This document shows positions 28,013 to 45,007 of a stretch of DNA of 64,000 nt, piece by piece. How positions within the stretch are numbered: the first letter of the stretch is position 1; each line of letters begins with the position of its first letter. The notes under the pieces are model-generated. The model did not search any database and was not told the DNA's origin. It saw only the letters and a list, made by a program, of their open reading frames with translations. Made by a program: the position numbers and the translations under genes. The DNA is from an uncultured Agathobacter sp. (GTDB taxonomy: Bacteria > Bacillota > Clostridia > Lachnospirales > Lachnospiraceae), in NCBI GenBank assembly GCA_944381555.1, contig CALWLL010000022.1, positions 18,135-82,134 of the forward strand, written 5' to 3'.

Positions 28013-29003
28013 CTATTCCTGTTCAAATGCGCCTGTGTAAAGCTGATAATACTGCCCCCTTTCTGCAATCAGTTTTTCATGATTGCCCCGCTCAATGATA
28101 TGTCCATGCTCAAGAACCATGATTACATCCGCATTTTTTATTGTGGAAAGACGATGGGCAATTACAAATACGGTTCTGCCCTTCATCAGCTTATCCATAC
28201 CATCTTGTACTAATTTTTCCGTACGGGTATCGATAGATGATGTTGCCTCATCCAAAATCATTACAGGCGGATCAGATACCGCAGCACGAGCAATCGAGAT
28301 AAGCTGTCTTTGCCCCTGTGAAAGTCCGCTTCCATCGCCTTTTAAGACGGTTTCGTAGCCTTTAGGAAGCATACGGATAAATCCGTCTGCATTGGCAAGT
28401 TTTGCGGCCGCAATACAATCCTCATCAGTGGCTTTGGGATTTCCGTACCGGATGTTTTCCATTACGGTTCCCGTGAACAGATTAACATCCTGCAAAACGA
28501 CGCCAAGTGAACGGCGCAAATCCGCCTTTTTAATCTTGTTGATATTGATTCCGTCATAACGTATTTTGCCGTCTGCTATATCATAGAAGCGGTTTAAAAG
28601 ATTTGTAATTGTTGTTTTGCCCGCAATCACTTTTACAATCTGCAATATCAGAAGCATTACAAGGACAGCAACAACGGTCAGCCATACGCTGGTATAAATC
28701 ATGCATACCAATACTGCCGCAATTGTGAACAGCGAAGAAATAAGCTGCGCCATAGACTGCGCAATCATTTGCCGGAGCGTATCGGTATCATTGGTATAAA
28801 GGCTCATAATATCACCATGCGTCCGGGTATCAAATGTGCGGATCGGCAGCCGCTGCATTTTATCAAACATTTCATCACGGATTTTTTTAAGCGTTCCCTG
28901 AGCGATCGTAACCATAACCCGGTTGTAAAGCAGACTGGACTTTGTGCGTTTCTCTGCCGGAGCGTGCATTTACAGACGGTTCTCTATTTTTATCATTACT
29001 CAT
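28013..29003 (-). pseudogene. ABC exporter subunit, broken by a frameshift and internal deletions
   Basis: This is the second gene of a heterodimeric multidrug-type ABC exporter. The original start (ATG at 29003, with AGGAG) leads into MSNDKNREPS, then shifts frame; a shorter frame starting MHAPAEK continues. It jumps at once to a mid-membrane segment (LLYNRVMVTIAQG), so the first helices are missing. A second gap joins membrane helix 4 straight to the ATPase at VKVIAGKTTITNLL, which removes the rest of the membrane domain and the first glycine of Walker A. The remaining ATPase looks normal: LSQGQ signature, ILDEATSSID Walker B, VIAHRLS. The product cannot form a transporter. Confidence 0.8.
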
Positions 29004-30011
29004 TTTCATCATCTCCTTTCCTCTGTGATTCATATATCTCACGATAAATACTGCAATTCTCCAAAAGCTCTGCTATACGGCGGGCTGAAGCAAAAGAAAT
29101 CGTAAGCATCACAAATACCATTGAGAGCATCATAAGACTTGTAAGAATCTGGGTCGCATAGGAAAGCAGGGCTGTCAAATCGCCGGTTGTCATTCCCAGA
29201 GCCGCGTTGTTTCCGCTTGCAACAATTGCCTTTGCTCCAATCCATGAAATCAGTATCATGCAGGCATACATAAAAAACTGCATAATCGGCGAATTGAAAG
29301 CAATCAGTTTCTCTCCCTTAGAGAAATCACGGTATATCTTACCGGAGATTTCCTTGAATTTGCCGACTTCATAATCCTCACGGTTAAAGGACTTGACGAC
29401 ACGGATTCCGCGAACATTTTCCTGTACAATGTTGTTCAGTTCGTCGTAGGTATGAAAGACCCCGCTCAGAATCGGGTTTACCTTACAGATAATCAGATAA
29501 AGCAAAAATGCCATAACCGGAATAACTGCAAGAAAAATCAAAGAGATTGCTGCATTGATCCGAAAGGAAACAATCATTGAAAAAATGAGCATAACCGGTC
29601 CCCGGATTGCCATCCTAATCAACATCTGATAAGCATTTTGGATGTTTGTAATATCCGTTGTCAGACGCGTCACGATGGAAGCCATCGAAAACCTGTCGAT
29701 GTTTGAAAAAGCAAGCGTCTGCACATTATCATACATATCCTGTCTCAGATTAGCAGAAAAGCCTGCTGACGTCCGGGCAGCAAAATGTGCCGATAAAACG
29801 CCTGTGCAAAGCTGGAACCCGGCAAAGGCGAGCAGAATAAGACCATACTCCACACAGCGCTCATATCTCCGACATCTATACCTTTATCAATAACCTCCGC
29901 CATACAAAGCGGTATGGCAATTTCAAAAGCTGCTTCTAATACAGACAGCATAATGGTAATGATTGAGCCTTTCTTATATTCACGAAGACTCTTCATTAGT
30001 GTTCTTATCAT
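28996..30011 (-). pseudogene. ABC exporter partner subunit, frameshifted and lacking its ATPase domain
   Basis: First gene of the exporter pair. It starts MIRTLMKSLREYKK at 30011 and shifts frame near 29850 (SAVW to EYGLILLAFAGF). It then runs through a normal type I exporter membrane domain (SAHFAARTSAGFSANLRQD, SIVTRLTTDITNIQNAYQ). After ARRIAELLEN it goes directly to CSIYREIYESQ, which is the usual extreme C terminus of such ATPases. The whole nucleotide-binding domain (about 235 residues) is therefore missing by an in-frame deletion. The junction fits recombination between similar ELLE-coding stretches at both domain ends. It overlaps the start of the second subunit. Regulated by the adjacent marR. 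Confidence 0.8.
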
Positions 30012-30595: not shown

Positions 30596-31660
30596 TTATA
30601 AGGACAGCAAACCGATTGTTTTTTGAAGCCCCTCCCTAATGTGTACTTTGGCTTTCCAGCCAAGTTCTTCCAACGCACTGCTATCAAGCAGAGCTTTTGT
30701 CGCTTTTGAATATCCGGCAGCTTCAATATCATCCGGCAGGTCAAAAATCACTTTTTTGTTTGAAATTTCGGCCAAAATCTCTGCCAAATCTCTTAGCATA
30801 ATATCGGAATGGCTGTCTGCTATATTATATGCACATTTACTCTTTCCCAGCAACAATATTGTCAATATTCCCATAACGGCGTCTGTTACATAAGTATATG
30901 AGTACAACTGACTTCCATCACTCTTTAAGACAATATCTTCTTTTTGGACAGCTTTATGGATAAACTGTGAGATTGCCTTTGTATCTGATTCCATTACGGT
31001 AGGGCCGTATACTCTTGATAATCTTGGAATGACAAAATCAATGCCATATTTCTTCCCGTAAGCATGGCAAAGCGTTTCACCAAGCCTTTTACTTTCCGGG
31101 TATCCTGCACGCAGTGTATTGCAATCTAAATATCCCAGATACTTCTCGTCAAACTTATCCACGTCTCCCCGGTTTTCTCCGTAAATTTCTACGGATGAGA
31201 GAAAAACAAAACGCCTGCAGCCACACTTTACAGATAAATCCAGTAAATATCTGGTACCATCTACATTTGCCGTAATCGTTCCGATTGGGTCTGTTGCATA
31301 CGCAACCGGATGCGTATTGCTTGCAGCATGAATCACATAGTCTGCCTGCTGCGTTATATCTAACGGTTCTGTAATATCATGTGATATATGGCAAAAATGT
31401 GCCTTATCAACCATATACTCCCCGAACCTGCGCTCAGCCCTCTGGGCGCTGCGGCTGACTGCAATGATTTTGATATTATCCCAACAGTGCTTATTTCTGT
31501 ACATCAAAATATCAATCAGCACAGATGCAATCATTCCCGTTGCCCCGCTTATGAGAACCGTCTTATTTCTTAAAAGGTTCCAAGGAATACGGTTGTTTAA
31601 TGCACATTGCCGTATATCCTCTTTATATTCTTCACTCTGTAAAAATCTATTATGCTTCAT
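30596..31660 (-). CDS. NAD-dependent epimerase/dehydratase (extended SDR)
   Basis: 354 residues. Extended SDR with the cofactor motif SGATGMIA (38-45), a strand with HAASNTHP, the active-site Ser in LSSVEIYGEN and the Tyr/Lys pair in GYPESKR. These enzymes modify nucleotide-activated sugars. It is the last gene of the cluster and overlaps the IspD-like gene by 11 bases, so the two proteins may act in sequence, for example on a CDP-linked or phosphorylated alditol or sugar. The product sugar cannot be read from the sequence. Confidence 0.85.
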   Translation of the reverse strand: MKHNRFLQSEEYKEDIRQCALNNRIPWNLLRNKTVLISGATGMIASVLIDILMYRNKHCWDNIKIIAVSRSAQRAERRFGEYMVDKAHFCHISHDITEPLDITQQADYVIHAASNTHPVAYATDPIGTITANVDGTRYLLDLSVKCGCRRFVFLSSVEIYGENRGDVDKFDEKYLGYLDCNTLRAGYPESKRLGETLCHAYGKKYGIDFVIPRLSRVYGPTVMESDTKAISQFIHKAVQKEDIVLKSDGSQLYSYTYVTDAVMGILTILLLGKSKCAYNIADSHSDIMLRDLAEILAEISNKKVIFDLPDDIEAAGYSKATKALLDSSALEELGWKAKVHIREGLQKTIGLLSL

Positions 31661-32387
31661 TCTTTTTTCCGTCTCCAGTCTTTAACCAGAAATCCCTTTG
31701 CGTTGTGTATAAGGCTTTAAAAATATCAATATCTTCCAGCGTTGTAATTTTTATATTCTTATTAGAGCCTAATGAAAAGTACAGTTCATCTCCTAAATCG
31801 AGCAGCAGCGTATTCGTATATACTGCATTGGTAATTCCACGGCGGACTGCTTCTTTATGCGCCTCAAGCGCTTTTTTGAATTGATATGCCTGCGGCGTCT
31901 GCACCCTCATAATGTCTTTTCTGTCAATTCCATCACTGCCACGTTCTCCATCCTCCGTGCGCATAATCGTTTCCTGACATCTGACTGCCGACAGACCGGA
32001 GCCATATTCTTTTGCCTTTAAAATGCAGTCTGTAATGATATCTTCACTTATCATAGGTCTGACTGCATCATGAATCACTACAATATCATCGTCCTGACAA
32101 TACTTCTCCAGTTCGAGCAAAGCCTTGCGTGCAGACGCCTGTCCATTCTCGCCGCCTTCTATTACCCATTTTAGTTTTGTGATACCATATGCCCCTGCAT
32201 ATCCCATTAAAACGTCCGTCCATCCTTCAATGCACGATACGATGACAGCATCAATATCCCTGTGCCGCTGAAATGCCTCCAGCGTATAAATAATAATCGG
32301 TTTTTCATATATTGGAATGAACTGCTTAGGCACAGACTGCTCCGTCCTGCTTCCGCTTCCCCCTGCCAAAATCAACGCCACATTCAT
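31650..32387 (-). CDS. IspD/TarI-like cytidylyltransferase 1
   Basis: 245 residues. Nucleotidyltransferase fold of the IspD/TarI group with LAGGSGSR then VPKQF near the N terminus, and VIHDAVRP, the CTP/metal-binding segment. IspD makes CDP-methylerythritol for isoprenoids and TarI makes CDP-ribitol for teichoic acid. Position inside a glycan cluster with a CDP-polyol transferase favours the TarI-like role. GAAGGGAAG precedes the start. A second, diverged copy lies directly upstream. Confidence 0.82.
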   Translation of the reverse strand: MNVALILAGGSGSRTEQSVPKQFIPIYEKPIIIYTLEAFQRHRDIDAVIVSCIEGWTDVLMGYAGAYGITKLKWVIEGGENGQASARKALLELEKYCQDDDIVVIHDAVRPMISEDIITDCILKAKEYGSGLSAVRCQETIMRTEDGERGSDGIDRKDIMRVQTPQAYQFKKALEAHKEAVRRGITNAVYTNTLLLDLGDELYFSLGSNKNIKITTLEDIDIFKALYTTQRDFWLKTGDGKKNEA

Positions 32388-32437: not shown

Positions 32438-33148
32438 TTAGCAATAATTACTACCGCTTGTCATGTCAAACAGTGCCTTAAACATCTCCACATCTTCAAC
32501 TGTGTTGATTTTAATATTCAGATCCGACCCCTTTGAAAAAGCAATCTCTTTTCCAAGCCGAGACACCATATTGTTTGTATCGACCTCATTTAGAATGGAT
32601 TTTTCCAATGCTTCTTTATGATATTCACATAGATCTCCTAAACGGTATGTTTGAGGCGTCTGTATTCTTCGGAAAGAATATCTCGATATGGAACTTAATC
32701 CTGTTTTTCCGTCTTTTGTCAACATGACATTATCCATTGATGCTACTGCTGAAATTCCCATACCTCTTTCCTTGCAGGTGACAATACTATCCGAAATAAT
32801 CTCATTGGTAACTAACGGACGTATGGCATCATGAATAACCACTATGTCATCCTCCTGACACGCTTCCCTAAGTTTATCTGCCGCCAGCTTTGAGGTTTCC
32901 TGGCCATTTATTCCACCTGTAATAATCCACTTTAATTTGGTGATTCCAAACTGCTTTGCATATGCTTCCACCATCTTCTCCCAGCCGCTTAGGCATGCAA
33001 CCATGATGGCGTCAATCTCCGGGTGTTTTTGGAATCTTTCCATTGTATACACAATGACCGGTCTGTTATATACATTTACAAACTGCTTCGGAATGTCCAT
33101 CTTAAAGGATGGGTCTGTTCCTCCGGCTAAAAGTACTGCTATGTTCAT
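32438..33148 (-). CDS. IspD/TarI-like cytidylyltransferase 2, with altered nucleotide loop
   Basis: 236 residues, clearly a paralogue of the neighbouring gene: shared blocks include IPKQF, GITKLKW, GGxNGQ, DDIVVIHDAxRP and RxQTPQ. The CTP loop reads LAGGTDPSFKMDIPKQF, so the usual G-x-G-x-R is changed to T-D-P-S-F-K. The enzyme could therefore use CTP differently or have a separate polyol substrate. Two tandem copies suggest two CDP-activated donors. A TarJ-like reductase is not present; the SDR at the end of the cluster may take part instead. Confidence 0.78.
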   Translation of the reverse strand: MNIAVLLAGGTDPSFKMDIPKQFVNVYNRPVIVYTMERFQKHPEIDAIMVACLSGWEKMVEAYAKQFGITKLKWIITGGINGQETSKLAADKLREACQEDDIVVIHDAIRPLVTNEIISDSIVTCKERGMGISAVASMDNVMLTKDGKTGLSSISRYSFRRIQTPQTYRLGDLCEYHKEALEKSILNEVDTNNMVSRLGKEIAFSKGSDLNIKINTVEDVEMFKALFDMTSGSNYC

Positions 33149-33195: not shown

Positions 33196-34209
33196 TTAAC
33201 ACCACGAGCCCTCAAAATGATGGACTGCGACTGTGGCATTCGTCTTCATACATTCATTCGTTTCCTTGATCATTGGTGCTAAAACCTGATACGGATAAAT
33301 AGTTATTCCGTCTATAACCTGATACTTTCCATTATTCACATATCCGTGCTTATGAAACGTCTCAATTTCTTTTCCCAGACTCGTCGTGTAATAGAGAAGA
33401 TTGCTGCTGTCTAATTGCTCATACACACTCATAAGCTCCTTAACAAACGGATGGCCTTTTACTGCGCCAAAGCCAGAACCTTCATTGATACCTCCCGAAA
33501 CCTCTGTTCCAAAAAAAGCTTCATTTTGTCGCAATATGTCTAAGGACTGTAACAATTCCACATCCGTGTCCATATAAATACCACCATGCTGATATACAAC
33601 ATCAAGCCTTACATAATCCGGCAAATGCGCCCATCTTCTGTTTGCATACGCTTCTCTTGTATATGGTATCTTATCAACGTCATAATTCTTTTCATTCCAG
33701 CAAATAAATTCATAGTCCGGACATAATTTATGCCAATTATCAACTTCACGCCTCAAATGTGCGGGCATTTCTTTTCCGCCAAACCAGCAATAATGTATTC
33801 TTTTGGGAATAACAGCTTCCGATAGACTTGTATGTAATACTTCATATGTATCGGTGCTATTTTTCTTTAAATCATGATAGGAATATATCTCTACACGGTT
33901 AAAATAGTCTATATTCTGAATCTGCTTTAAAACATCCTGATAAAATGCCGTTGTAATCAGCAGCACAATCTCCTCCGGTTTGTATTGCTCCATTATTGCG
34001 CCAATAGATAATACCGGAATGTACTCTTCCCCAACGGCTATACATTTTCCGTTTTTTCCAGAATCGTTATCAATAACTCCCCATACCTTAAAGTCTTTAT
34101 TTCTGTATGTAAAATCATGATACATAATATGAAAATAACTGCCCGCACCAAAACAGATAATTTTTTTACTTTTTCTCCAAATAAATTCGTCCAATTCCTT
34201 TTTACCCAT
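33196..34209 (-). CDS. GT32-like glycosyltransferase with N-terminal Rossmann module
   Basis: 337 residues. Residues 14-112 form the cluster's recurring module (KIICFGAGSYFHIMY ... WGVIDND). The second half is a GT32/OCH1-like glycosyltransferase: IPKRIHYCWFGG (134-145), DYVRLDVVYQHGGIYMDTDVE with the metal-binding DTD at 214-216. This transferase family uses nucleotide sugars to add residues to glycans. It lacks a membrane segment. It sits between the methyltransferase and the cytidylyltransferase genes. Confidence 0.83.
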   Translation of the reverse strand: MGKKELDEFIWRKSKKIICFGAGSYFHIMYHDFTYRNKDFKVWGVIDNDSGKNGKCIAVGEEYIPVLSIGAIMEQYKPEEIVLLITTAFYQDVLKQIQNIDYFNRVEIYSYHDLKKNSTDTYEVLHTSLSEAVIPKRIHYCWFGGKEMPAHLRREVDNWHKLCPDYEFICWNEKNYDVDKIPYTREAYANRRWAHLPDYVRLDVVYQHGGIYMDTDVELLQSLDILRQNEAFFGTEVSGGINEGSGFGAVKGHPFVKELMSVYEQLDSSNLLYYTTSLGKEIETFHKHGYVNNGKYQVIDGITIYPYQVLAPMIKETNECMKTNATVAVHHFEGSWC

Positions 34210-34222
34210 CTTATCACTCTTC

Positions 34223-35149
34223 TCAATTTACTTTTTCCAATAAAGTTATACAATCTAAATCCTTGTAGCCCCAGTCGATAACCTGCTGTTCAACAACAGT
34301 AAATCCTGCCCGGTATGCCAGATGGGCAAATATTTTTTTACTCATAAAATTACGTCCTTTTTTCGAGTATTCAAAAGAAGCCTTATAATCCTCATCATTA
34401 TTGGAATGATGTATCAGCGCTTTTCCGCCCGGGACTAATACGCGATAGATGTCAACTAAGTATTCATAGATGTCTATCAATTCAAAATGAACCATTGCAT
34501 CATAAGAAAACAGCGCTGTATATTCGCCGCTTTTGAGTTCTTTCAGGTTATATCCGTCATTGCAGTAATAACTAATATTTGAGACATCTGAAAATCTGCT
34601 CCGGCAGAAATCTATATTTTTCTGCAAAATGTCAACCAAAGTAATTCTTCCTGCTTTATCTATATATTGTTTTACATGCCTTCCCCTTCCGCAGGCGAGT
34701 TCTATAACATTAGTCAGATCTAACTGTGAAAATAAACGATAAAACTCTGTTTCCGCATTCCAGAAGCCATCCAACTCTGTTTCCGCATCTTCAAAATAAG
34801 CATCCATATTATCAATATGAAAAAATGCACAGTACTCTCTGTTAAACTCAACCTTATTTTTGTTTACCAAATGAGCAAGTTCATCCAATGCGCAATATTC
34901 CCTGCCATCTGCATCCAGCATATCGCATATCTCTTCTGCCCCAACAGCTACAGCAATAATAAACTTTGCCCCCAGCTCTTTGGCTTCCTGATAACTGTAT
35001 ACTTTTTTATCATATACGCTCTGAATTTCTTTATGACGTTTATCACAAAATCCGATGATATAAGCGCTTAATCCCTGATTTTTTAAGAACTCATAACACC
35101 CCTTTCCCTGTCTGCCTGCACCATAAATAATATATCTATCCTCTGTCAT
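34223..35149 (-). CDS. SAM methyltransferase with N-terminal Rossmann module
   Basis: 308 residues. Residues 1-95 are the recurring module (RYIIYGAGRQGKG, ending with a strand IIAVAV). From about 140 on it is a class I methyltransferase with motif I VIELACGRGRH, an ILQKNIDFCRS motif II region and LVPGGKALIHH. It probably methylates a sugar or its acceptor lipid. GAGAAGGA precedes the start. Part of the long leftward operon. Confidence 0.82.
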   Translation of the reverse strand: MTEDRYIIYGAGRQGKGCYEFLKNQGLSAYIIGFCDKRHKEIQSVYDKKVYSYQEAKELGAKFIIAVAVGAEEICDMLDADGREYCALDELAHLVNKNKVEFNREYCAFFHIDNMDAYFEDAETELDGFWNAETEFYRLFSQLDLTNVIELACGRGRHVKQYIDKAGRITLVDILQKNIDFCRSRFSDVSNISYYCNDGYNLKELKSGEYTALFSYDAMVHFELIDIYEYLVDIYRVLVPGGKALIHHSNNDEDYKASFEYSKKGRNFMSKKIFAHLAYRAGFTVVEQQVIDWGYKDLDCITLLEKVN

Positions 35150-35175
35150 TTTCTAATCCTTCTCACATTTGTTTT

Positions 35176-36375
35176 TTAATCCTGATTTTCTATCCATTGC
35201 GGCAATTTTGTATTTGTTAATGCTTTTTCTTTAATCCAATCAATCTTTTCTTCACTGATTCCTTTTGAAACCATTTCATCTTTGATCTTTACCGCCAATT
35301 CTTCATTTAAGATTGCAATCAGCATAATATCAAATTCCTGTTCTGCCGCCTCATCAATACTGATTACATCTATTCCCTGCTTTCGTAGGGATTCATAATG
35401 CAAATCTGACAATACGGCAACCTCTATATGCTCTTTCTGCTCACAATACAATCTAAGAGTGTTTCCAAAGCCTCCAAGTCCGTAAATGGCAATCTTCATT
35501 CCGGCCTTTACTTTCTCATAAGGAAACAACACGCTGCCACTTTGTATTTTCTCATATCCCTTTACCAGCAACAGAAACCACATATAAAGCTTCAATTGTG
35601 CATTGAGCATCGCTTCGGACTTTCTATCCAGCTTTTTAAATTTCTTTTTTAAAAGATGATAAATTTTGATAAAATTATCATTTGCTGCCGGTTTATTTGT
35701 TCTGACAATTGACCCGTTCCTCTGCCGGTAATGATAGCACAGAAGATTGGATACAAAAATGGATTCTGCATCAATGATACACGGAAATATACATGCTGCA
35801 TCCTCCCCATAAACAACTGCATCCTCCACCTTCTTCTGATTTTCTATCAGCACTTCCCGTTTAATCAGTTTATTGCACAAAGAGGGAGAAATCCCAAACT
35901 CAAAAAAATTATCACACATAAGCATTTTTGAATACAGCTTTGACAGCTCTTTGGGCGCCGAATAATATCCCTCCGGTATTTTATTCGGTTTCGGTACACG
36001 ATACCCTTCATACTCCTCATAATACCCATATGCAATAATATCTGCATATCTTCCGATTGAGATTAGCTGTTCATATGTGTTTTCGTCTATCCAATCATCC
36101 CCGTCCACATAGGTAACATATTCCCCGTCTGCATATTCTAACCCTTTTTTTCTTGCGCTGACAAGTCCTCCGTTTTTTTTATGAATAACTTTAATCCTGC
36201 TGTCCAAAGCTGCGTATCTGTCACAAATTACACCGCTTAAATCCGTAGAACCATCATCAACGAGGATAATCTCAAGATTGGTGTAAGTCTGATTTAAAAC
36301 ACTGTTCACACACGCAGTAAGATAATCCTGCACATTGTAGATTGGAATAATTACACTAATTAAGATACTCTTCAT
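35176..36375 (-). CDS. GT2 glycosyltransferase with C-terminal Rossmann module (copy 1)
   Basis: 399 residues. GT2 (GT-A) transferase with SVIIPIYNVQDYL, VDDGSTD (39-45) and YVDGDDW. The recurring module follows at about 290-385 (KIAIYGLGGFGNTL, then VAVLSD). No membrane helices are evident, so it acts at the cytoplasmic face. The sugar transferred is unknown. It belongs to a series of four GT2 genes in this operon that share the layout transferase plus C-terminal module. Confidence 0.85.
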   Translation of the reverse strand: MKSILISVIIPIYNVQDYLTACVNSVLNQTYTNLEIILVDDGSTDLSGVICDRYAALDSRIKVIHKKNGGLVSARKKGLEYADGEYVTYVDGDDWIDENTYEQLISIGRYADIIAYGYYEEYEGYRVPKPNKIPEGYYSAPKELSKLYSKMLMCDNFFEFGISPSLCNKLIKREVLIENQKKVEDAVVYGEDAACIFPCIIDAESIFVSNLLCYHYRQRNGSIVRTNKPAANDNFIKIYHLLKKKFKKLDRKSEAMLNAQLKLYMWFLLLVKGYEKIQSGSVLFPYEKVKAGMKIAIYGLGGFGNTLRLYCEQKEHIEVAVLSDLHYESLRKQGIDVISIDEAAEQEFDIMLIAILNEELAVKIKDEMVSKGISEEKIDWIKEKALTNTKLPQWIENQD

Positions 36376-36387
36376 CCTTCTTTATCC

Positions 36388-37662
36388 TTATTTAAACTGC
36401 TGGCGGTATTCTTTCTGCATCATATAATATAATTCTATCCTATCATAATCTATACAGAAATCCTTACCATACCCCAATGCTTCCACATATTTGTATATCT
36501 GTGACTTATACTTACAACTGACAGCTATCAGTATCCCTGTACTGCCCTCTGCTAATTCTTTTTCATAATTTTCTATTGTTTTTATGGGATAATCTCCCAT
36601 TTTCTTTGGAGTGTCCGCTGTAATATCTGTGACTGCAAATCCAAGCACTCTCTGATTCATATTTTCTTCAAGCAGTTCCAAGGCTTTTTTCCCATAATGA
36701 CCGGCTCCGTAAATCACGATATTTCTAAATCGCCGCAATCCGGTTCCTTCCTTTTGCGCCTCAAAATAGTATTTCTGTATCTCTTCTTTTGTAGTTAATG
36801 GACCACTATCTTTTGCCTTACAATCAGTCCGTAGTTGATTTATTTCCTTCAGGGCAGCGATTATTGCTCTGTCATTACGCAGAACATAATATGAAACAAC
36901 ATTTCTCATCTCACCATATGTCAACTGCTCTGTCTGACTCCGATACAAATCCCATAAATGATTATCCGCAGCAAGGCGCATTACATCTTTATATCCGCGC
37001 AATACATCCAGTACCACTTCTCTAGTATATTTTACTTTTTTATGCATGATACGATATGTATAAACTGTTTCCGCAACAGCATGGAAACGCTTTGCTGTTG
37101 TCATGGCTTTTACAAAGAAAACAGGATCCTCATATCTTTTATACTGTGGGAAAAATATTTTATTTGTTACTAAAAATTCTCTGGAATAAATATATTTATG
37201 AAACCAATAGGATTCCTGTAGCTTTTCATAATCTAAATCTTCCTCCCCGCTAAATTGAATATTCTCTGCCTTCTTATAACTGCCTTCTGCCTTCATTAGC
37301 AGATTCCCGCCGCAAATATTCTTTTGGCTGCTTTCTGCGGAGGTATACAATTTGCGTAAGGTATCCTGATGCGGATAGCAGTCATCCGCATCCATAAAAG
37401 CGATATATTTCCCGGATGCATATTCTATTCCTCTGTTTCTGGCCGCACCCGCACCTTGATTCTCCTGCCTTAAAAGTTTTATGTAAGGAAATGCTTTCCG
37501 GTATGCCTCAATAATCGAAACCGAGCCATCTGTAGAACCATCATCGATACATATAATTTCAATATCCTGTAACGATTGCTGTACGACACTGCCAAGACAC
37601 TCTTTTAGATAGGTTTCTGCATTATAAACCGGTATGATTACTGATATTGTACTATCTTTCAT
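36388..37662 (-). CDS. GT2 glycosyltransferase with C-terminal Rossmann module (copy 2)
   Basis: 424 residues from the start at 37662, which has GGAGGG; the frame is open 17 codons further but without a ribosome site. GT2 motifs VIIPVYNAETYL, IDDGSTD and AFMDADD are followed by a C-terminal module (about 310-405: NIVIYGAGHYGKKAL, LGFAVTD). It overlaps the upstream WcbI-like gene by 11 bases, so translation is probably coupled. Confidence 0.85.
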   Translation of the reverse strand: MKDSTISVIIPVYNAETYLKECLGSVVQQSLQDIEIICIDDGSTDGSVSIIEAYRKAFPYIKLLRQENQGAGAARNRGIEYASGKYIAFMDADDCYPHQDTLRKLYTSAESSQKNICGGNLLMKAEGSYKKAENIQFSGEEDLDYEKLQESYWFHKYIYSREFLVTNKIFFPQYKRYEDPVFFVKAMTTAKRFHAVAETVYTYRIMHKKVKYTREVVLDVLRGYKDVMRLAADNHLWDLYRSQTEQLTYGEMRNVVSYYVLRNDRAIIAALKEINQLRTDCKAKDSGPLTTKEEIQKYYFEAQKEGTGLRRFRNIVIYGAGHYGKKALELLEENMNQRVLGFAVTDITADTPKKMGDYPIKTIENYEKELAEGSTGILIAVSCKYKSQIYKYVEALGYGKDFCIDYDRIELYYMMQKEYRQQFK

Positions 37663-38806
37663 ACGAATCCCTCCAACACCACCAGATGTATTCCCGTACA
37701 TATTCTTCCACATCCATAGACGCTGCTGCTCTTTTTTCTGATTTTACCCGGATTTCGTCTTCTTCCCATGCTAAACCAAGAACTTTCTTGACCCATGAAT
37801 ACACCGGAATCTCATGCGAATCCAGACATTTTTCCGTATAAACCTCTTCCGTAATTCCCAATATTTCTAATATTCCTTTGGAAATCATCTTCAAAACTGC
37901 GTTTGCTGGATGTCCGGCATCATAAAAAAGTTTTTCCTGCTTATAATTATCAAGAATAAAATCTACCACTTTAATATCCCATGCTTTTTCACGCTCACGC
38001 ATTTTCAATATATATTCATGAAAGTTATCTTCTATCTCTTTGCGGGGTATAATGTTATCCTGTTCTACATATTGACAAATCTGGTTCACGCTCATTTTAC
38101 GCCGGAGACAATTTTCAATCACATAATCTCTATAAGGAAACATTCCGTTTTTGTCCTTTCCGTTCAGCAAAGCGCAATTATTTGGATTCTCCTGCTTTGC
38201 ATACGGAAAGAATGCTGCGCCATATCCAAATAAATTAGGAACCACAATTTCTATAACGTTATGAACGTTATGCTTCATATATTCATCCGAATATTGATAA
38301 CCATACCCGTTATCTGGCCGAATATCCTGATGAACCCATATATCCATATACTGCATTATCTCTTTATCAATAACAGGCTTTTCAAAAATCCTCGGCACAA
38401 AATAGACGATATAATCCTCTTGAAACTGTCTGGATGATTGCAGATAGGATTCCACAATATCCATGTGGCAGTTTCCGAAAATAAATACTAGCTTTTTGTC
38501 CAGATAATTAAAATATATAAAATCCTCAAACTCTGCTTTTTCCATTTGAACCAGACGTTCCCTGATTTTTGGGTATATCCGGGGAGGGCAGGCAGCTATT
38601 ATGTATTTTCCCTGTAATAATTCCCGCTTTGGAGCATATACTTTATAATTAGCAAAATCTCCGTAATCTCCATCGTCATCAATCATAAACTCAACGGATA
38701 CTCCATTTTGTTCCAGATAATAAATACATTTGGCAGCAAATGAGCCTGTACCATATACTACTATTTCTTTGTCTCTGATTTTTTCCAATAAAATCACGGT
38801 TTTCAT
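37652..38806 (-). CDS. WcbI-like polysaccharide protein with N-terminal Rossmann module
   Basis: 384 residues. The recurring module fills about 1-110 (EIVVYGTGSFAAKC, EFMIDDDGD). It is followed by a domain resembling WcbI, a capsule-biosynthesis protein implicated in acetyl transfer: LVFIFGNCHMD, YIVYFVPRIFEKP and VPNLFGYGAAFFPYA. The short FGNCHMD motif is the typical WcbI opening. The substrate is unknown. AAGGGATGG precedes the start. Confidence 0.7.
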   Translation of the reverse strand: MKTVILLEKIRDKEIVVYGTGSFAAKCIYYLEQNGVSVEFMIDDDGDYGDFANYKVYAPKRELLQGKYIIAACPPRIYPKIRERLVQMEKAEFEDFIYFNYLDKKLVFIFGNCHMDIVESYLQSSRQFQEDYIVYFVPRIFEKPVIDKEIMQYMDIWVHQDIRPDNGYGYQYSDEYMKHNVHNVIEIVVPNLFGYGAAFFPYAKQENPNNCALLNGKDKNGMFPYRDYVIENCLRRKMSVNQICQYVEQDNIIPRKEIEDNFHEYILKMREREKAWDIKVVDFILDNYKQEKLFYDAGHPANAVLKMISKGILEILGITEEVYTEKCLDSHEIPVYSWVKKVLGLAWEEDEIRVKSEKRAAASMDVEEYVREYIWWCWRDSYER

Positions 38807-38832
38807 CCATCCCTTCTGCCTGCCATATGGAA

Positions 38833-40272
38833 TTAGCCATTTAATAAACTCTCACTTACTGCTGTGATGTCATATATATCCCTTTCATCATATAACAAAC
38901 AAATATGTTCCTCACAAATTCCCTGCTGAAGCAACGCTGCCTTCATCTCCTCCTGATACACCTTGCTTGAAATGACAAATTGAGTACTATCCTGCGGTAA
39001 GTGATTATACAAAAACACCTGCCTGTCCATAAAAGTTTTTTTCGTATCACCTGATGTAATGATAAAATATAACTCACATTCTATGCTTCCTATAAAATGC
39101 CGGTATAGCTTCAACAAGGCATCCGTATGTTTTCCGATTCCATATATCCCTATTTTTTCCGTTTTTTTACCTAAAGGAATCTTAATCAGCATATTCACAA
39201 TGTATTGCCTGTTTTCTGCAAATAAACTATCATAATATTCTATAAAGCATGATTTATCCAGCCAGTATTTATGAATCAGATTATCATACTCTCCAGATTC
39301 CATTTCTTTTCTGATTTGATATAGGATTACCAGCAAGCCAGTGCTGTCAAAGCTGTCTGCATCGATGTTCTTATTTATCACATCCCATTTTTCAAAGAAT
39401 TTCTCTATTAACTTCTTTTTTTGTTCCCGCACGAAATTATCATTGTTACACATGCCTAATCGGTTTATCATCATGGCTGTCTGATATATTGCAAACTTCC
39501 GGGCAAGCAGTACATTCTCATTTAGAAAATCTTTTTCATAAATATATGAAACCATTAATTCCTGGGTTTTAACCAAATCCCGGTACTTTATTTCACTCAT
39601 CGCGCCCGTCATAATGGAATTTTCTCTATACCGCCTGATGTAAAGCGAATCCGGCAATACTGTTGTTTTATCCGCATTTAGTATTACTTGCAGACTAAAA
39701 AAGTTGTCCTCAAAATACATTCCATGCGGAAATACAATTTTATGCGTATTCAGAAATTCTCTCTTATAAGCCGCCATACATGCAGAAACAATATAATAAT
39801 TGGGAAAGACCTGTTCAAAATACTCTATTCCCGACATTATACCTTCATTTTGAAGCGCTTTTCTATGATATTCATTCTGATTCATATTGACTTTAAAATC
39901 GAATACTACATCTGCACTATAGTACAAGACATCCACCCGGCAAGTCTTCAGCTTTTCTTTTACAGCAGAAACCAAGCGCAGGCTAACGTAATCATCTGAA
40001 TCAATAAATACAATATAGTCGGCGCGTGAATGTCTCAGCCCCGTATTTCTTGCTGCTGCCAATCCCTGATTTTCTTGATTTACCAGTACAAAATTAGAAA
40101 ATCTCTCCTTATATGACTGACATATCTGCAAGCTGTTGTCTGTAGAACCGTCATTTATTAAAATAATCTCATCAAACGGAGTTTCCTGCATAGCTAAACT
40201 ATCCAGACATTGCTCTAAATATTCTTCTACATTATATACCGGTACAATTGCGCAAACTGAAGATTTTTCCAT
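38833..40272 (-). CDS. GT2 glycosyltransferase with C-terminal Rossmann module (copy 3)
   Basis: 479 residues, the longest of the four GT2 proteins. IVPVYNVEEYLEQ, INDGSTDN and VFIDSDDYV give the GT-A core. A helical region of about 130 residues is followed by a diverged module (about 368-470: KIGIYGIGKHTDALL). GGGGAG precedes the start. It sits between two other modular genes in the operon. Confidence 0.83.
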   Translation of the reverse strand: MEKSSVCAIVPVYNVEEYLEQCLDSLAMQETPFDEIILINDGSTDNSLQICQSYKERFSNFVLVNQENQGLAAARNTGLRHSRADYIVFIDSDDYVSLRLVSAVKEKLKTCRVDVLYYSADVVFDFKVNMNQNEYHRKALQNEGIMSGIEYFEQVFPNYYIVSACMAAYKREFLNTHKIVFPHGMYFEDNFFSLQVILNADKTTVLPDSLYIRRYRENSIMTGAMSEIKYRDLVKTQELMVSYIYEKDFLNENVLLARKFAIYQTAMMINRLGMCNNDNFVREQKKKLIEKFFEKWDVINKNIDADSFDSTGLLVILYQIRKEMESGEYDNLIHKYWLDKSCFIEYYDSLFAENRQYIVNMLIKIPLGKKTEKIGIYGIGKHTDALLKLYRHFIGSIECELYFIITSGDTKKTFMDRQVFLYNHLPQDSTQFVISSKVYQEEMKAALLQQGICEEHICLLYDERDIYDITAVSESLLNG

Positions 40273-40324
40273 ACATCTCCCCTTCCAAAATAGTAATAGG
40301 CCGAACCAGTGGCTTATTTCCTCT

Positions 40325-41470
40325 TTACATGTATATATTTTTGTAATACAGATACGTCTGCCATGTGCAATAATGATTGATTTTCTGCTCCGATAACTGC
40401 TGCATGATTTCGGGAATATATCTGCGGCCTACCGCAATGATTATGGTGTACTTATCAACGTCCTTTTTGAGCGTCTCGACAGACTTCACATCTAATCCCA
40501 ATATTTGCGTTCCGATCTTTGTTGGATCGTTGTCAATAAAACCGGCCGTACGCTCACCTAAAATATCTGCTGCTTTTTTTCCAGATTCTCCCGCACCGAA
40601 AATCAGAACTGTTTTTTTACGTTTTGCTTCATCTGTAAAAAGCGATCTGGCCACATCCGCATCCTGCTTGATAAATGGAGAACATTCCTCTATTTCCTTT
40701 AAATGCTCCTGTTCTCCATACATTCTTTCTATTGCATCATAGTAAATCTGGCTTAATACAAAAAAAGAAGCCTGTGCAGATTTCATGATATACTTCCAAT
40801 GCTTTTTTCTAAGCGCTGCAAGGTTTCTGTTTATCATTTCCTTTTTCGTTGCAGTAAGGCTTCCCTGATGTATTCTGTATTCATACAATACTTCGGGGAT
40901 ATATCCGGCACTTCCGAAGTTTTCCTCTATGCGGAGCCAATAATCATAATCCTCTACGCCATACAGGCTGGTATCATACTGTCCCACTTTCCGATATACT
41001 TCTTTTCTGTATAAAAAACAGGCTCCGATATTATTTGTTATAACCAGAGGTTCCTCCATTTCCACATGATACCCGCTTACCAAACGACCTTCCGCATCTA
41101 TCCCTCTCATTGCAGACTTTACCATGTACTTTTGGGGATGCTTATCTAAGTACCCGGTCATTACAGCTAGTGCGTTCGGTAAATACCGGTTATCATCTGA
41201 AGTCCATGTAAGATATTCTCCTTTTGCATACTCAAATCCAATATTCAAAGAAGCCGGAAGTTTTTTATTTGCTTTATTATGAATCACCCGAATACGCGCA
41301 TCCTTCTTTGAAAATTCTTCTGCAATCTTTGGGGTATTATCTGTTGATGCATCATTTACAATAATAAGCTCCCAATCCTGAAATGTCTGGGCTGCTATGC
41401 TTTCAATTGATTGCCTGATATATTGTTCGCCATTGTATGTTGGAAGAACAATTGAAACCTTTGTTTCCAT
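40325..41470 (-). CDS. GT2 glycosyltransferase with C-terminal Rossmann module (copy 4)
   Basis: 381 residues. GT2 motifs SIVLPTYNGEQYI, VNDASTDNT and TWTSDDNR (a DDN in place of the usual DDD/DGDD), a later ED in YGVEDYDYW, then the module (about 285-375) in its most complete form: TVLIFGAGESGKKAADILG and AGFIDND. It starts five bases after the stop of the wecB-like gene, so the two are coupled. Confidence 0.85.
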   Translation of the reverse strand: METKVSIVLPTYNGEQYIRQSIESIAAQTFQDWELIIVNDASTDNTPKIAEEFSKKDARIRVIHNKANKKLPASLNIGFEYAKGEYLTWTSDDNRYLPNALAVMTGYLDKHPQKYMVKSAMRGIDAEGRLVSGYHVEMEEPLVITNNIGACFLYRKEVYRKVGQYDTSLYGVEDYDYWLRIEENFGSAGYIPEVLYEYRIHQGSLTATKKEMINRNLAALRKKHWKYIMKSAQASFFVLSQIYYDAIERMYGEQEHLKEIEECSPFIKQDADVARSLFTDEAKRKKTVLIFGAGESGKKAADILGERTAGFIDNDPTKIGTQILGLDVKSVETLKKDVDKYTIIIAVGRRYIPEIMQQLSEQKINHYCTWQTYLYYKNIYM

Positions 41471-41475
41471 ACATT

Positions 41476-42585
41476 CTATTCCTTTTCTGCAAAATATCTT
41501 AAAATTATCCCGGCTATTCTCTCTGACGCCTGTCCATCTCCATACGGATTTGATGATAAACTCATTCTTTGATACTCTTCTTTGTCCGTTAAAAGCCTTA
41601 CGGTTTCGTCATAAATGCGCGTTTCGTCCGTCCCCACAAGTTTTAGTGTTCCCGCCGCAATCCCTTCCGGTCTTTCTGTTGTATCTCTCATTACCAAAAC
41701 AGGCTTCCCCAGCGAAGGAGCTTCTTCCTGTATCCCTCCGCTGTCTGTTAAGATAAGAAAACTTCTTGCCATATAATTATGAAAATCCATAACATCAAGG
41801 GGGTCTATCAGACGGATTCTGTCATGATTTCCTAATTCTGTATCTGCTATTTCACGCACAACCGGATTTAGATGTACCGGATAGATAACTTTAACATCCG
41901 AAAATTCATCCACTACCCTCTTGATCGCGCGAAACATATGATGCATTGGTTCTCCAATGTTTTCACGTCTATGTGCAGTCACAAGCAACAGTCTTGAATT
42001 CCCCAGCCACTTAAAATCTTCATTTTCGTAATCCTCAATAACCGTTGTTTTCATTGCATCTATTACCGTATTGCCTGTAACATAAATCTTTTCTTTTGCT
42101 TTTCCCTCTTTCAGCAGATTTTCCTTTGCTGTTTGAGTTGGAGCAAAGTACAAATCCGCAATTAAATCCACTGCCTGCCGGTTAAATTCTTCCGGATACG
42201 GCGATTTCATATTATAGGTACGCAAGCCCGCTTCTACATGTCCAACTGCAATTCCTGCATAAAACCCGGTCAAAGCCGCGGCAAAGGAAGTCGTGGTATC
42301 TCCATGCACTAAGATAATGTCTGGTTTTTCTTCCTGAACAATATGTCCTAACGTATTTAGCACACTTGTTGTAATAGAGCCTAATGTTTGCTTCTGCTTC
42401 ATAATATGCAGATTATAATCTTCACGCACGCCAAATACCTTCATTACCTGCATGAGCATTTCCTCATGCTGTCCAGTAAGGCATACGCAGCATTCTATAT
42501 TTTTATGTTTTGCCAATTCCAAGATAACCGGACACATTTTAATTCCTTCCGGCCGTGTACCAAATACTGCAAGAACTTTTATCAT
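41476..42585 (-). CDS. wecB: UDP-N-acetylglucosamine 2-epimerase (non-hydrolysing)
   Basis: 369 residues. It opens IKVLAVFGTRPEGIKM, the family signature. Other conserved pieces are GDTTTSFAAAL, GHVEAGLRT, TAHRRENIGE and LTDSGGIQEEA with RDTTERPEG. It interconverts UDP-GlcNAc and UDP-ManNAc, a precursor of linkage units and capsules. ManNAc is also part of the wall teichoic acid linkage unit, which fits the CDP-polyol genes in the cluster. The start at 42585 is chosen to match the family N terminus; it leaves an 8-base gap to the upstream gene. Confidence 0.93.
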   Translation of the reverse strand: MIKVLAVFGTRPEGIKMCPVILELAKHKNIECCVCLTGQHEEMLMQVMKVFGVREDYNLHIMKQKQTLGSITTSVLNTLGHIVQEEKPDIILVHGDTTTSFAAALTGFYAGIAVGHVEAGLRTYNMKSPYPEEFNRQAVDLIADLYFAPTQTAKENLLKEGKAKEKIYVTGNTVIDAMKTTVIEDYENEDFKWLGNSRLLLVTAHRRENIGEPMHHMFRAIKRVVDEFSDVKVIYPVHLNPVVREIADTELGNHDRIRLIDPLDVMDFHNYMARSFLILTDSGGIQEEAPSLGKPVLVMRDTTERPEGIAAGTLKLVGTDETRIYDETVRLLTDKEEYQRMSLSSNPYGDGQASERIAGIILRYFAEKE

Positions 42586-42593
42586 CGTATCAC

Positions 42594-44405
42594 TTACTTT
42601 CTGTCTTTTGTGCCTATCCATGCTAGAAATAGACCTTCTATCTGCTCATTTTCATAATGGATACTGCGTTTTACTTCCACCCTGACTCCATTATCAGACA
42701 TCATTTCTGCCAATTTATCCGCATCAAACCACTGTTCCCACTCTTCTATCAGAATACTTCCGAGTTTTTCTATATTCTTATCAATCACAACTATTTTACC
42801 GCCTGGTTTTGTAACCCGAACCAACTCTTTTATTGCACTTCCGATATCTATAGCATGTTCCAATGCTTCGCAGGTATAAACAACATCAAATGTTTCATCA
42901 CTGTATGGAATATTCGTTAATGCACCTTGCTTTTTTTCCATTACCTGTTCCGACACATTCCGCAAAACATTTTGTGATATATCAACGGAAAAATAATTAT
43001 TGTCCGGATATTGCTCAATTAAATTCTTTAAATATCTTCCTTTTCCACATCCCACATCACAGATGTCAATATTGGTTCCTGCTCCTGCAACAATTTCTTG
43101 TACAATTTGATATCTTCCATCCCCTTTGCCTATATCTTCGCAAAAGGATTCTGCCAAGTTCTCAAACTCAGCCAGATTTTTATAATAAAGCGCATCAAGG
43201 AAAAACTTGACTGCCCAGCTTATTTCCTCCGATGGAAAATAATCGTTTACCTCATCTCTGCTGTTCTGGCTTAAATAGCTTCCATACCAGCCGCCCGTAT
43301 CGTTCTGTAATTTACACGCATATTCAAACGCTGCCTGTCCGTGCTTTATATCTCCTAACCGGAACCAGATCATTGCCAGTTGAAATAAGCCGGTTGAACA
43401 AACCCAGTCTGCATCCGCATAACCGGGAACTGCTCCGTTTTCTTTCTGATATCCGGCCATATTGTTCATTGCCTTAACGGCAATATCCACTTCTCCTAAA
43501 TCGATCATTGCCTCTATGACGTAAGCATGAAAATGTGACAGTAATGTAAAATTGATTATATCGTCATAATAATGCTCTTTATAATAGTTCAGGATTTTCT
43601 TTGCCTTTATCTTATATTCTTCACATTGAAAAACTTCTCCTGCCTGTATAAGAGGAGAAATGCAATATATATGTATGATTTCCGAACACGTTCTTTTCTC
43701 CCCCCATGCATCTGTTGCCGGAGTTATCAGTCTTCCGTCCGGTGACATTTTACTTAATATCCAGTTACATCCCCGCCTGATATGTTCATCTGCTTCCGGC
43801 AGCAACTCCCTGATTGCAAGCAATCCTTTTAGAACCTGCGCGGAATCAAAAATATACGGAGCCTTATTATCCGTGTCATACCATGCACCGTCTTCTTTTT
43901 GAATCTCACATAGCCATTTCGCATAAATTATAGCCAAATCACGGTATCCCCATTGCAGCAGCGTTGGAATATAGTAACCAGTAACCTCAGGATATGGAAG
44001 CCGCTTGCACGAATGGCATATGATTCCCTTATCCTGTATGCTGTTTGCAAGTATCCAGTTTATTGCTTTCCTGTAAATGCCTAAATAGTCTGGACGCTGA
44101 GTCATTTTTTGTCTTATCGTTTCAGCATGAAAATCATTTACCGTAATGTAATTGCTGATACCTTTGCTGTCTAACTGCTCCATAATCTGCTTTTGAAAAC
44201 GCACTGATACTGTGATAACAATGAAATATCTTTGCAGCTCTTTCTCTACGTCGGATACTGCAAAAACAGGAATCCCCTGTATTGTCTTTCCCCGCTTTGC
44301 CAAGTCGTTATCCAGAAAAAAGGCTATTTTTTCTTTTCCGATAAGCTCTGCTGTTTTTTCTCCTATATCCCCCGCTCCAAAAAGGATCATCTTCTGATCG
44401 TTCAT
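42594..44405 (-). CDS. Three-part fusion: Rossmann module, alpha/alpha toroid, methyltransferase
   Basis: 603 residues. Residues 1-105 are the recurring module (KMILFGAGDIGEKT, AFFLDND). About 115-405 form an alpha/alpha toroid like terpenoid-cyclase or glycan-processing barrels, with repeated signatures of the type QKEDGAWYDTD, ENGAVPGYADADWV and NDTGGWYGSYL. About 425-595 are a class I methyltransferase (ICDVGCGKGRYL, VVYTCEALEHAIDIG). No characterised enzyme with this order is known to me. The toroid might bind or cut a glycan or hold the lipid carrier while the last domain methylates. ATG at 44405 is preferred over an upstream TTG. Confidence 0.75.
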   Translation of the reverse strand: MNDQKMILFGAGDIGEKTAELIGKEKIAFFLDNDLAKRGKTIQGIPVFAVSDVEKELQRYFIVITVSVRFQKQIMEQLDSKGISNYITVNDFHAETIRQKMTQRPDYLGIYRKAINWILANSIQDKGIICHSCKRLPYPEVTGYYIPTLLQWGYRDLAIIYAKWLCEIQKEDGAWYDTDNKAPYIFDSAQVLKGLLAIRELLPEADEHIRRGCNWILSKMSPDGRLITPATDAWGEKRTCSEIIHIYCISPLIQAGEVFQCEEYKIKAKKILNYYKEHYYDDIINFTLLSHFHAYVIEAMIDLGEVDIAVKAMNNMAGYQKENGAVPGYADADWVCSTGLFQLAMIWFRLGDIKHGQAAFEYACKLQNDTGGWYGSYLSQNSRDEVNDYFPSEEISWAVKFFLDALYYKNLAEFENLAESFCEDIGKGDGRYQIVQEIVAGAGTNIDICDVGCGKGRYLKNLIEQYPDNNYFSVDISQNVLRNVSEQVMEKKQGALTNIPYSDETFDVVYTCEALEHAIDIGSAIKELVRVTKPGGKIVVIDKNIEKLGSILIEEWEQWFDADKLAEMMSDNGVRVEVKRSIHYENEQIEGLFLAWIGTKDRK

Positions 44406-44435
44406 TTCCCAATTCCCGTCTTTCAATAAATATAT

Positions 44436-44912
44436 TTAGCTTATTTCATAAATTACATCTTCCAGCGAAATAACAGGGCAGTCAGCATATTGAGACATCT
44501 CTCTCTCTATCTCACCAAAATAATGTATTGCCGTTACTACTATTACATCAACAGGCTCCATCTGTTCATCCGGCGAATATATATCAATATCTGCCAGCAA
44601 TTTCTCTTTATCTTTGTCAATCGCATACTTTACTTCTATTTCGGAATCCTTAAGTTCCGCATAAAGCCTTTCTCCCAATTCCTTCATTCCGTAAATTGCA
44701 ACCGTTTTATAATTATTCCTTTTAAAATACTGCTCCAAGGATTTCCCCTGTTGTTTTACTTCTAACCATGTTACCAGAATATTATAAAACTCGGACATCT
44801 TTATAAGACTCTCCTGTTTCGCCTTTAACTCTTTCTGGTTAATATAATTAACTGCGGCTCCGCCTGCCAGCGCGCCGGTTATGGTAGTTAATACCGGAAT
44901 TATTTTCTTCAT
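44436..44912 (-). CDS. Membrane-anchored stand-alone Rossmann module (158 aa)
   Basis: 158 residues. An N-terminal hydrophobic helix (about 3-24) and a short coiled linker are followed by only the recurring module (about 70-158: TVAIYGMKELGERL, VKYAIDKDK). It has no fused enzyme. In a cluster where eight enzymes carry the same module, a membrane-bound solo copy could serve as a docking or assembly partner at the membrane; this is inference. Start at 44912 because GGAG precedes it; upstream in-frame starts lack one. Confidence 0.7.
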   Translation of the reverse strand: MKKIIPVLTTITGALAGGAAVNYINQKELKAKQESLIKMSEFYNILVTWLEVKQQGKSLEQYFKRNNYKTVAIYGMKELGERLYAELKDSEIEVKYAIDKDKEKLLADIDIYSPDEQMEPVDVIVVTAIHYFGEIEREMSQYADCPVISLEDVIYEIS

Positions 44913-45007
44913 CTTAATCTCCATTTCTGCGCCGCATTCTGCATATGAAGCTTTGAGCCAGACAGCGCACAGACTCAAAGCGCCGTGTGAAAGATTTATT
45001 TTTCACA

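Follow-up and report, generated by a model that had tools for sequence, protein, structure and literature searches.

A Rossmann-like module recurs in nine proteins of a surface-glycan gene cluster of an uncultured Agathobacter sp. The cluster lies on contig CALWLL010000022.1 within a stretch of 64,000 nt, referred to here as the window, and all coordinates given below are window positions. The nine copies are homologous and the two copies modelled adopt the same fold. The module is plugged into enzyme families which also occur without it, is concentrated in gene clusters of related genomes, is absent from four families of precursor enzymes and is also found in a family of small proteins, in which it stands alone behind a presumed membrane anchor. 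Such an add-on domain may serve as a tag which brings enzymes together at the membrane, or as a control switch common to them. We tentatively lean toward an assembly tag at the membrane, possibly gated by a nucleotide.

The nine open reading frames (ORFs) named in the initial annotation are all present on the minus strand and are labeled by their first position as p1 (33196), p2 (34223), p3 (35176), p4 (36388), p5 (37652), p6 (38833), p7 (40325), p8 (42594), and p9 (44436). That they share a real unit was confirmed with a profile hidden Markov model (HMM) built from 250 modules of other genomes and containing zero window sequences; the collection itself was begun with a window-seeded profile. 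Among the 335 ORFs of the window, this window-free profile places exactly the nine proteins at ranks 1–9, with E-values from 1.6e-21 to 3.4e-10, and the next ORF follows at 6.4e-5. A chance likeness of Rossmann loops was rejected, as the profile separates the nine from every other window ORF. With leave-one-out HMMs, eight of the nine units were recovered before any non-cluster ORF; p6 (E = 0.02) was ranked after ORF 7218-8606 (E 1.8e-4), which presumably encodes a TrkA-like protein. A plain alignment of the nine units contains one invariant column, and single pairwise phmmer comparisons among them are weak, above all for p6. The motif G-x-G-x-x-G, which had been ascribed to all nine units, is complete in five (p2, p3, p4, p7, and p8), while p1, p5, and p6 lack the third glycine and p9 lacks the second. 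The D-N-D after strand two, described as frequent, was found in three units (p1, p7, and p8) and not in the remaining six.

The unit belongs to the Rossmann-like domains of the superfamily comprising PglD_N, Rex, and the accessory domain of unknown function (DUF) of WbaP. Structure models cover p8 and p9, and the other seven units are assigned by sequence profiles. Strands alternating with helices, a glycine loop behind the first strand and an acidic residue behind the second are the hallmarks of this superfamily, and the module shows them in the models, the fold matches and the residue frequencies of the enzyme copies. The AlphaFold predicted local distance difference test (pLDDT) is 92.2 for the p8 module and 80.4 for p9, the residues 1-30 of which fall below 50. 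A Foldseek search with the p8 module returned Rex (E 2.1e-5), 3nkl, which is a UDP-D-quinovosamine dehydrogenase domain, and VioB with a TDP-sugar (7txp) as the top matches and WbaP (8t53) at rank 20 (E 9.7e-4, TM-score 0.65 over the query), with a probability of 1.00 for all four. The solo p9 model matched Rex best (E 3.9e-3, none below 1e-3), and the FkbM methyltransferase 2py6 was matched at E 1.7e-2. Sequence profiles of the module agree with Foldseek, as they match 3nkl at E 4.3e-12, WbaP chains at E 1.5e-4 to 1.2e-3, residues 3-91 of 2g6t at E 4.7e-5 and, weakly, the sugar C-methyltransferase 4rv9 (E 0.027), yet, with weaker scores, unrelated NAD-binding enzymes are matched as well. The entry 2g6t is, as we take it, CAC2185 of Clostridium acetobutylicum.

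Pfam detects the module weakly. Relative to the gathering cut-off of PglD_N (PF17836; 23.4 bits, whole protein), p7 scores 24.2, p2 23.0, p4 22.8, and p3 18.2, and five of the nine proteins have no match; in the genome search, three matches were above this cut-off. CoA_binding was found above its cut-off in p7 and p8, and p9 has no Pfam match above cut-off at all.

Among known systems, the DUF of WbaP-type large phosphoglycosyl transferases (PF13727, CoA_binding_3) and 3nkl have the same fold as the module and a clear sequence relation to it. The WbaP DUF is an accessory domain of a membrane glycan enzyme, takes part in dimer contacts and is responsive to uridine nucleotides (PMC10942596). In contrast to it, the module of the window is spread over many enzyme families of the cluster and has a dedicated solo copy. 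PF13727 was not matched in the nine proteins at E-values up to 1, whereby the HMMER filters discard most weak matches, and no WbaP-like swapping beta-hairpin follows the last strand in the modeled 102 residues of p8, i.e., in one enzyme copy. The PglD_N domain of the NeuD/PglD/VioB acetyltransferases gives weak to significant profile matches in p2, p3, p4, and p7, and VioB is among the best folds, but no hexapeptide acetyltransferase (left-handed beta-helix) domain is present among the Pfam matches of the nine proteins. The NAD-binding domain of the Rex repressor is the best Foldseek match of both models; unlike Rex, the module is fused to transferases, and no Rex-type winged-helix DNA-binding domain was found among the Pfam matches of the nine proteins. 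Furthermore, C2185-like_N (PF22674) matches 8 of 100 sampled module bearers, so that Pfam already has a model overlapping part of these modules. The entries PF22674, 2g6t, and 2py6 are single structures or families, in which cluster-wide reuse and an anchored copy are not described. Word searches of the literature, in which coverage of subscription journals is mostly wanting, retrieved no description of the module set, and a word search for CAC2185, DUF1919, or 2G6T retrieved nothing relevant.

The module is bound to clusters. In the genome of the window, a profile of the nine units finds only these nine matches below E 0.05. A second profile, built from 62 of 128 modules with the solo class omitted, finds outside the cluster only a Rex-sized frame (E 1.9e-7) and one match at E 8.9e-4. 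This led to the rejection of a general trait of the glycosyltransferases of this genome, which has 16 matches to glycosyltransferase family 2 (GT2); among the 12 listed, four are located in the cluster, each with the module. Of 60 relatives searched, 24 gave matches at E up to 0.001. In eight whole genomes, 77 of the 98 matches of the 62-module profile (E up to 0.01) lie inside cluster regions. The 21 others comprise six Rex-sized (213-235 aa) and six dehydratase-sized proteins (626-635 aa) as well as nine of other sizes, and with the limit set to E 1e-5, nine outside matches are left, each having the size of Rex (213-235 aa) or of a dehydratase (626-633 aa); these labels are inferred from protein size. 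The clusters are not always compact or single: the region in G022 spans about 63 kb, G026 has its modules split between two contigs, and in G028 and G031 they are spread over several short ones. Genome G016 has 50 GT2 matches, and among the matches listed, the frames on contig C1 are free of the module and the three on C8 contain it. In a sample of the phylum, 13 of 299 genomes besides that of the window contain at least three matches at E up to 1e-8, spanning eight families; among the matches listed, each multi-match genome has most of them on one contig, and most other matching genomes have a single match. The co-occurrence of module enzymes in clusters, for which the initial annotation had suggested a profile-based genome search, thus extends far beyond the window; the units do align, nine by sequence profile and two by model, and an equal frequency outside such clusters was not observed.

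The stand-alone copy is likewise conserved beyond the window. Nine relatives of p9 share a linker with the motif W..K..GK.L..Y and a module with invariant residues of its own, mostly behind a hydrophobic N-terminus. A search of genome contigs for this solo family yielded 78 loci from the best 80 of 139 relatives, mostly assigned by title to Lachnospiraceae or to Roseburia, Blautia, and Butyrivibrio; some are only named 'bacterium' and one is a metagenome-assembled genome of Bacteroides. The family has 105 proteins in 77 of the 78 loci, and a strongly hydrophobic N-terminal stretch is present in 87 of these 105 vs. 54 of 863 module-less ORFs. In 72 of the 78 loci the solo is accompanied by at least one module-bearing enzyme (at least 230 aa) and in 56 by three or more such proteins, the median being five; among the 60 loci with full flanks, the respective numbers are 58 and 49. 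Of the six loci without a module enzyme, four are cut contigs (three still with about 10 kb on one side), and two, L102 and L130, have full flanks.

The enzymes bearing the module were surveyed in twenty stretches from nine genomes of the genus and in the whole window. At E < 1e-6 the module was found on 126 of 342 ORFs, with 53 copies being N-terminal, 51 C-terminal, 12 on short proteins and 10 internal. This number is an undercount by at least one, since two double-Rossmann proteins (L045:12599-14380 and L047:6074-7855) were left out as presumed dehydratases and the Pfam scan, which covered only the first of the pair, shows it to be a GDSL-lipase-type protein. The N-terminal bearers (52 of the 53 were aligned and scanned, one cut by a locus edge being omitted) include, among the first 25 of 49 families, methyltransferases, GT4, FkbM, GT32, Caps_synth, DUF4422, WcbI, LicD, GT-D, and MptE-like proteins. 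A GT2 match is found in 33 of the 51 C-terminal bearers, besides WbsX, RgpF, GT4, and others. The internal or double-copy set of 10 scanned proteins, which consists of nine of the 10 internal-module proteins (L058:5141-7369 was omitted) and L045:12599-14380, contains four cytidylyltransferase-like proteins; others match Glyphos_transf, GDSL lipase, radical SAM, or FkbM. The reuse on unrelated enzymes, which had been noted for the window, therefore holds for more than 20 clustered Pfam enzyme families in relatives, counted over the three scanned sets and 100 further bearers, some of these families being related to each other.

Four cytidylyltransferase fusions (L044:6319-8649, L052:2950-5184, L060:7263-9497, and L062:11867-14218) are about 750 aa long, with an internal module shortly before the cytidylyltransferase domain, and three of them have an N-terminal methyltransferase match, one of these below cut-off.

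Since the module occurs on GT2, GT4, GT32, GT-D, WbsX, RgpF, LicD, DUF4422, WcbI, methyltransferases, and others, no common substrate is evident. In another reading the module would present substrates, binding a moiety common to acceptors or donors, like the nucleotide part of a shared donor or a lipid-linked acceptor, and feeding it to the catalytic domain. VioB with its bound TDP-sugar among the best fold matches and the weak profile match to 4rv9 are in line with it, but the partner families use unrelated donors (S-adenosylmethionine, nucleotide sugars, CTP) and homologous enzymes without the module exist, and we consider it unlikely.

The module behaves as a plug-in. Six families with at least five homologous complete proteins occur both with and without a detected module. 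In five of them, proteins with the module exceed those without it in length by 78 to 153 aa (medians of 400 vs. 322, 367 vs. 247, 514 vs. 372, 385 vs. 293, and 538 vs. 385.5), which argues that the absence is real. The sixth shows no such difference (447.5 vs. 444.5), and as its family profile matches the module (hhalign 98.7), the two members seemingly without it are probably missed copies.

The distribution over enzyme families is uneven. In the 78 loci the module is found on 84 of 153 GT2-like proteins and on 0 of 76 members of four precursor-enzyme families (Fisher p 3e-20), namely the IspD- (cytidylyltransferase), DegT- (aminotransferase), ribulose-phosphate-epimerase-, and short-chain dehydrogenase/reductase (SDR)-type families, which were named by sequence inspection and a Pfam tally of a sample rather than member by member. 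In this tally (100 of 330 bearers and 115 of 428 non-bearers, with totals of 41 and 99 families, respectively), for which 25 families were listed per group, IspD, DegT, and Epimerase occur in the list of the non-bearers but not in that of the bearers.

The glycine loop differs between the two classes of copies. In about 490 enzyme copies (n = 491), the first two glycines, G6 and G8, are present in 97 and 91%, the third glycine in 60% and the aspartate after strand two (D30) in 79%. In copies on proteins shorter than 200 aa (n = 130), the three glycines are found in 100, 26, and 93% and the aspartate in 97%. Because of these frequencies, enzyme copies could still bind a nucleotide, whereas for the solo copies nucleotide binding of the usual kind is improbable. 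The loss of the second glycine in most of the short copies, with the fold being kept, is as expected for a copy retained for contacts. Furthermore, family 23, the eight members of which are about 518 aa long and come from 7 of the 78 loci (e.g., L131:14987-16543), carries a degenerate module, the alignment of which starts after the glycine loop (hhalign probability 92).

An alternative to a tag is a pathway-wide nucleotide sensor, in which every enzyme would have the module as its own regulatory domain and one and the same nucleotide (UMP, UDP, CMP, or NAD(H)), bound by all of them, would slow or activate many steps jointly, with the solo as decoy or reporter. The best sequence and fold relatives, i.e., Rex, VioB with a TDP-sugar and the WbaP DUF, bind nucleotides. 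The WbaP DUF is stabilized by UMP, UDP, and UTP, UMP inhibits WbaP with an apparent half-maximal inhibitory concentration of 4.1 uM, and flux modulation by such domains is proposed (PMC10942596). The conserved G6, G8, and D30 of the enzyme copies and the module on some cytidylyltransferase fusions are also consistent with a sensor. However, the usual feedback targets, i.e., the enzymes of the four precursor families, are devoid of the module, the third glycine is missing in a large part of the enzyme copies and the second in most short ones, and family 23 aligns solely past the loop. A sensor is thought less likely than the tag, but given the WbaP precedent it is a strong rival.

Contact-making, like nucleotide-sensing, has a precedent in the related DUFs. 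The WbaP DUF holds most of the inter-chain contacts of the WbaP dimer and the EpsZ DUF was modeled as dimerizing with the help of EpsW (PMC10942596 and PMC12802240, respectively). The rarity on precursor enzymes, the anchored solo with its lost glycine and the varied chemistries of the bearers favor contacts at the membrane. The adaptor envisaged in the initial annotation is thus supported in part, as the reuse on different enzymes, the clustering and the anchored solo all extend far past the window. In an assembly tag, the module would be a portable, non-catalytic accessory domain, which marks the enzymes of one surface-glycan pathway, mostly those acting on the growing glycan. What we infer is that modules would bind one another and, where present, the membrane-anchored solo copy, and that differing transferases and tailoring enzymes would thereby be collected on the cytoplasmic side of the membrane. 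Since the enzyme copies have kept the glycine loop, a nucleotide bound there might reinforce or release the contact.

Several observations weigh against such a tag. The conserved loop glycines of the enzyme copies are unneeded for pure scaffolding. A free anchored solo is present in five of 11 module-bearing genomes and missing in six, some of which are incomplete: in G004, G016, and G029 a solo-like segment is found only within a larger protein, G004 additionally encoding the module on its own as an unanchored 107-aa protein, and in G011, G034, and G026 neither a solo nor a solo-like segment is present. The anchored hub is therefore common, not obligatory. The solo of L130 (10001-10477) is located in a full-flank locus without a visible sugar or module cluster, and that of L102 is accompanied by just two sub-threshold module matches. 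The module is no more frequent in genes adjoining the solo (68 of 208) than among all complete ORFs of these loci (472 of 1243, including the solos themselves). Precursor-type enzymes sometimes bear the module, as seen for the four cytidylyltransferase-like fusions of the internal set and one NTP_transferase among the 51 C-terminal bearers. Its absence is not confined to precursor enzymes either, since 69 of the 153 GT2-like proteins lack it, as do a GT4-like (0 of 22) and an asparagine-synthase-like family (0 of 15). Finally, modules from one locus do not resemble each other clearly more than they resemble modules from elsewhere (mean score 0.621 vs. 0.605; 60 permutations, standard deviation 0.009, highest 0.626; 367 rows, with rows below 60 aligned residues, solos and window rows omitted). 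There is thus no sign of locus-specific co-evolved pairs, and the copies look interchangeable rather than like matched sets. The assembly tag is proposed with reserve because the glycines are retained, some genomes lack the solo, transferase families without the module exist and matched sets are not seen.

The same comparison led to the rejection of local duplication inside the cluster as the main source of the copies.

It also bears on a neutral history, in which recombination between neighboring genes of diversifying clusters would have spread the domain by hitch-hiking, with no shared function. The unclear locus-specific similarity would fit this, as would the presence or absence of the module within families and the one degenerate copy. 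Nevertheless, glycines and aspartate conserved over about 490 diverse copies, the uneven spread across enzyme families and a dedicated solo family with invariant residues make hitch-hiking quite improbable.

In a wider form of the assembly tag, nearly any enzyme acting on the growing glycan could carry the module, the anchored solo would be the usual hub and new enzymes would join by gaining a module, so that glycan diversity could arise by re-tagging. We regard this extension as rather doubtful. A common tag on many enzymes together with an anchored partner is known from the cohesin-dockerin system of cellulosomes and from the docking domains of polyketide synthesis; this likeness concerns a possible way of working only, and no homology is claimed. 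If the module is an assembly tag, it would open to direct testing how glycosyltransferases sharing no membrane segment find each other and the lipid-linked glycan, which is an open question in the field. It would also allow the enzymes belonging to one pathway to be recognized within large, variable glycan clusters and could be used to move enzymes between pathways.

Within the window, the placements of the module described in the initial annotation proved correct, and the following features are all on the minus strand. The E-values refer to the window-free HMM unless stated otherwise. N-terminal copies were found in p1 (33913..34164, residues 16-99, E 3e-11), a GT32 or Gly_transf_sug protein (33196-34209, PF04488), in p2 (34913..35137, residues 5-79, E 2.6e-17), an S-adenosylmethionine (SAM)-dependent methyltransferase (34223-35149, PF13649), and in p5 (38543..38764, residues 15-88, E 8.4e-14), a WcbI-like protein (37652-38806, PF18588). 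The fourth one, in p8 (44166..44393, residues 12-87, E 1.6e-21; protein 42594-44426; AlphaFold segment 44100-44405 with pLDDT 92.2), is followed, according to Pfam, by a squalene-cyclase-like region and then a SAM methyltransferase. C-terminal copies are located on the GT2 proteins p3 (35272..35496, residues 294-368, E 5.5e-16; 35176-36375, PF00535), p4 (36481..36723, residues 331-411, E 6.2e-14; 36388-37713, PF00535), p6 (38926..39156, residues 373-449, E 3.4e-10, leave-one-out E 0.02; 38833-40272), which has the most divergent copy, and p7 (40388..40609, residues 288-361, E 5.5e-20; 40325-41470), in which both PglD_N and CoA_binding exceed their cut-offs.

The stand-alone copy of p9 (44490..44702, residues 93-163; protein 44436-44978) was detected at E 2.9e-38 with an HMM of the solo class without window sequence, and its AlphaFold 10-residue blocks have pLDDT values of 78-96. 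It is preceded by the linker with the solo-family motif W..K..GK.L..Y (44703..44795), in which W71, K75, G78, and Y84 are conserved at 90% or more in 10 solo proteins, and by a hydrophobic, glycine-rich N-terminal segment (44853..44903; Kyte-Doolittle 17-residue mean 1.62), which is the presumed membrane anchor. AlphaFold predicts one long helix for residues 20-76, with the pLDDT of residues 1-30 being below 50. An internal contrast is a 381-aa protein inside the cluster (41476..42621), for which the profile search gave no module match; judged from its sequence, it is presumably a UDP-N-acetylglucosamine 2-epimerase-like protein.

As listed, the ORFs p4 (36388-37713) and p5 (37652-38806) overlap by 62 bases. 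The start of p4 is probably a later in-frame methionine, since its GT2 domain begins only at residue 24.

In the full-flank locus L130, the solo is followed by two tandem proteins of 558-559 aa starting with MSGF(F/Y)VSNFDT. In 5 of 11 genomes, flagellin genes are located about 12 kb or less from modules on the same contig (G011 C3, G016 C8, G022 C1, G026 C22, and G034 C1), and none was found on the contig of the window itself. The cluster may thus be a flagellin-glycosylation island in some relatives and serve another surface glycan elsewhere.

Two adjoining IspD-like cytidylyltransferases are encoded at 31650-32387 and 32438-33148, beside an SDR-type protein. Their nearest models are IspD and D-ribitol-5-phosphate cytidylyltransferase, both below cut-offs, which suggests either two CDP-activated polyols or a diverged pair. 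Finally, ORF 28013-28969, which we take to be one half of an ATP-binding cassette exporter with 28996-29853 as its partner half, shows a membrane region passing straight into a Walker-A-like GKTT motif, as though an intervening stretch were absent.

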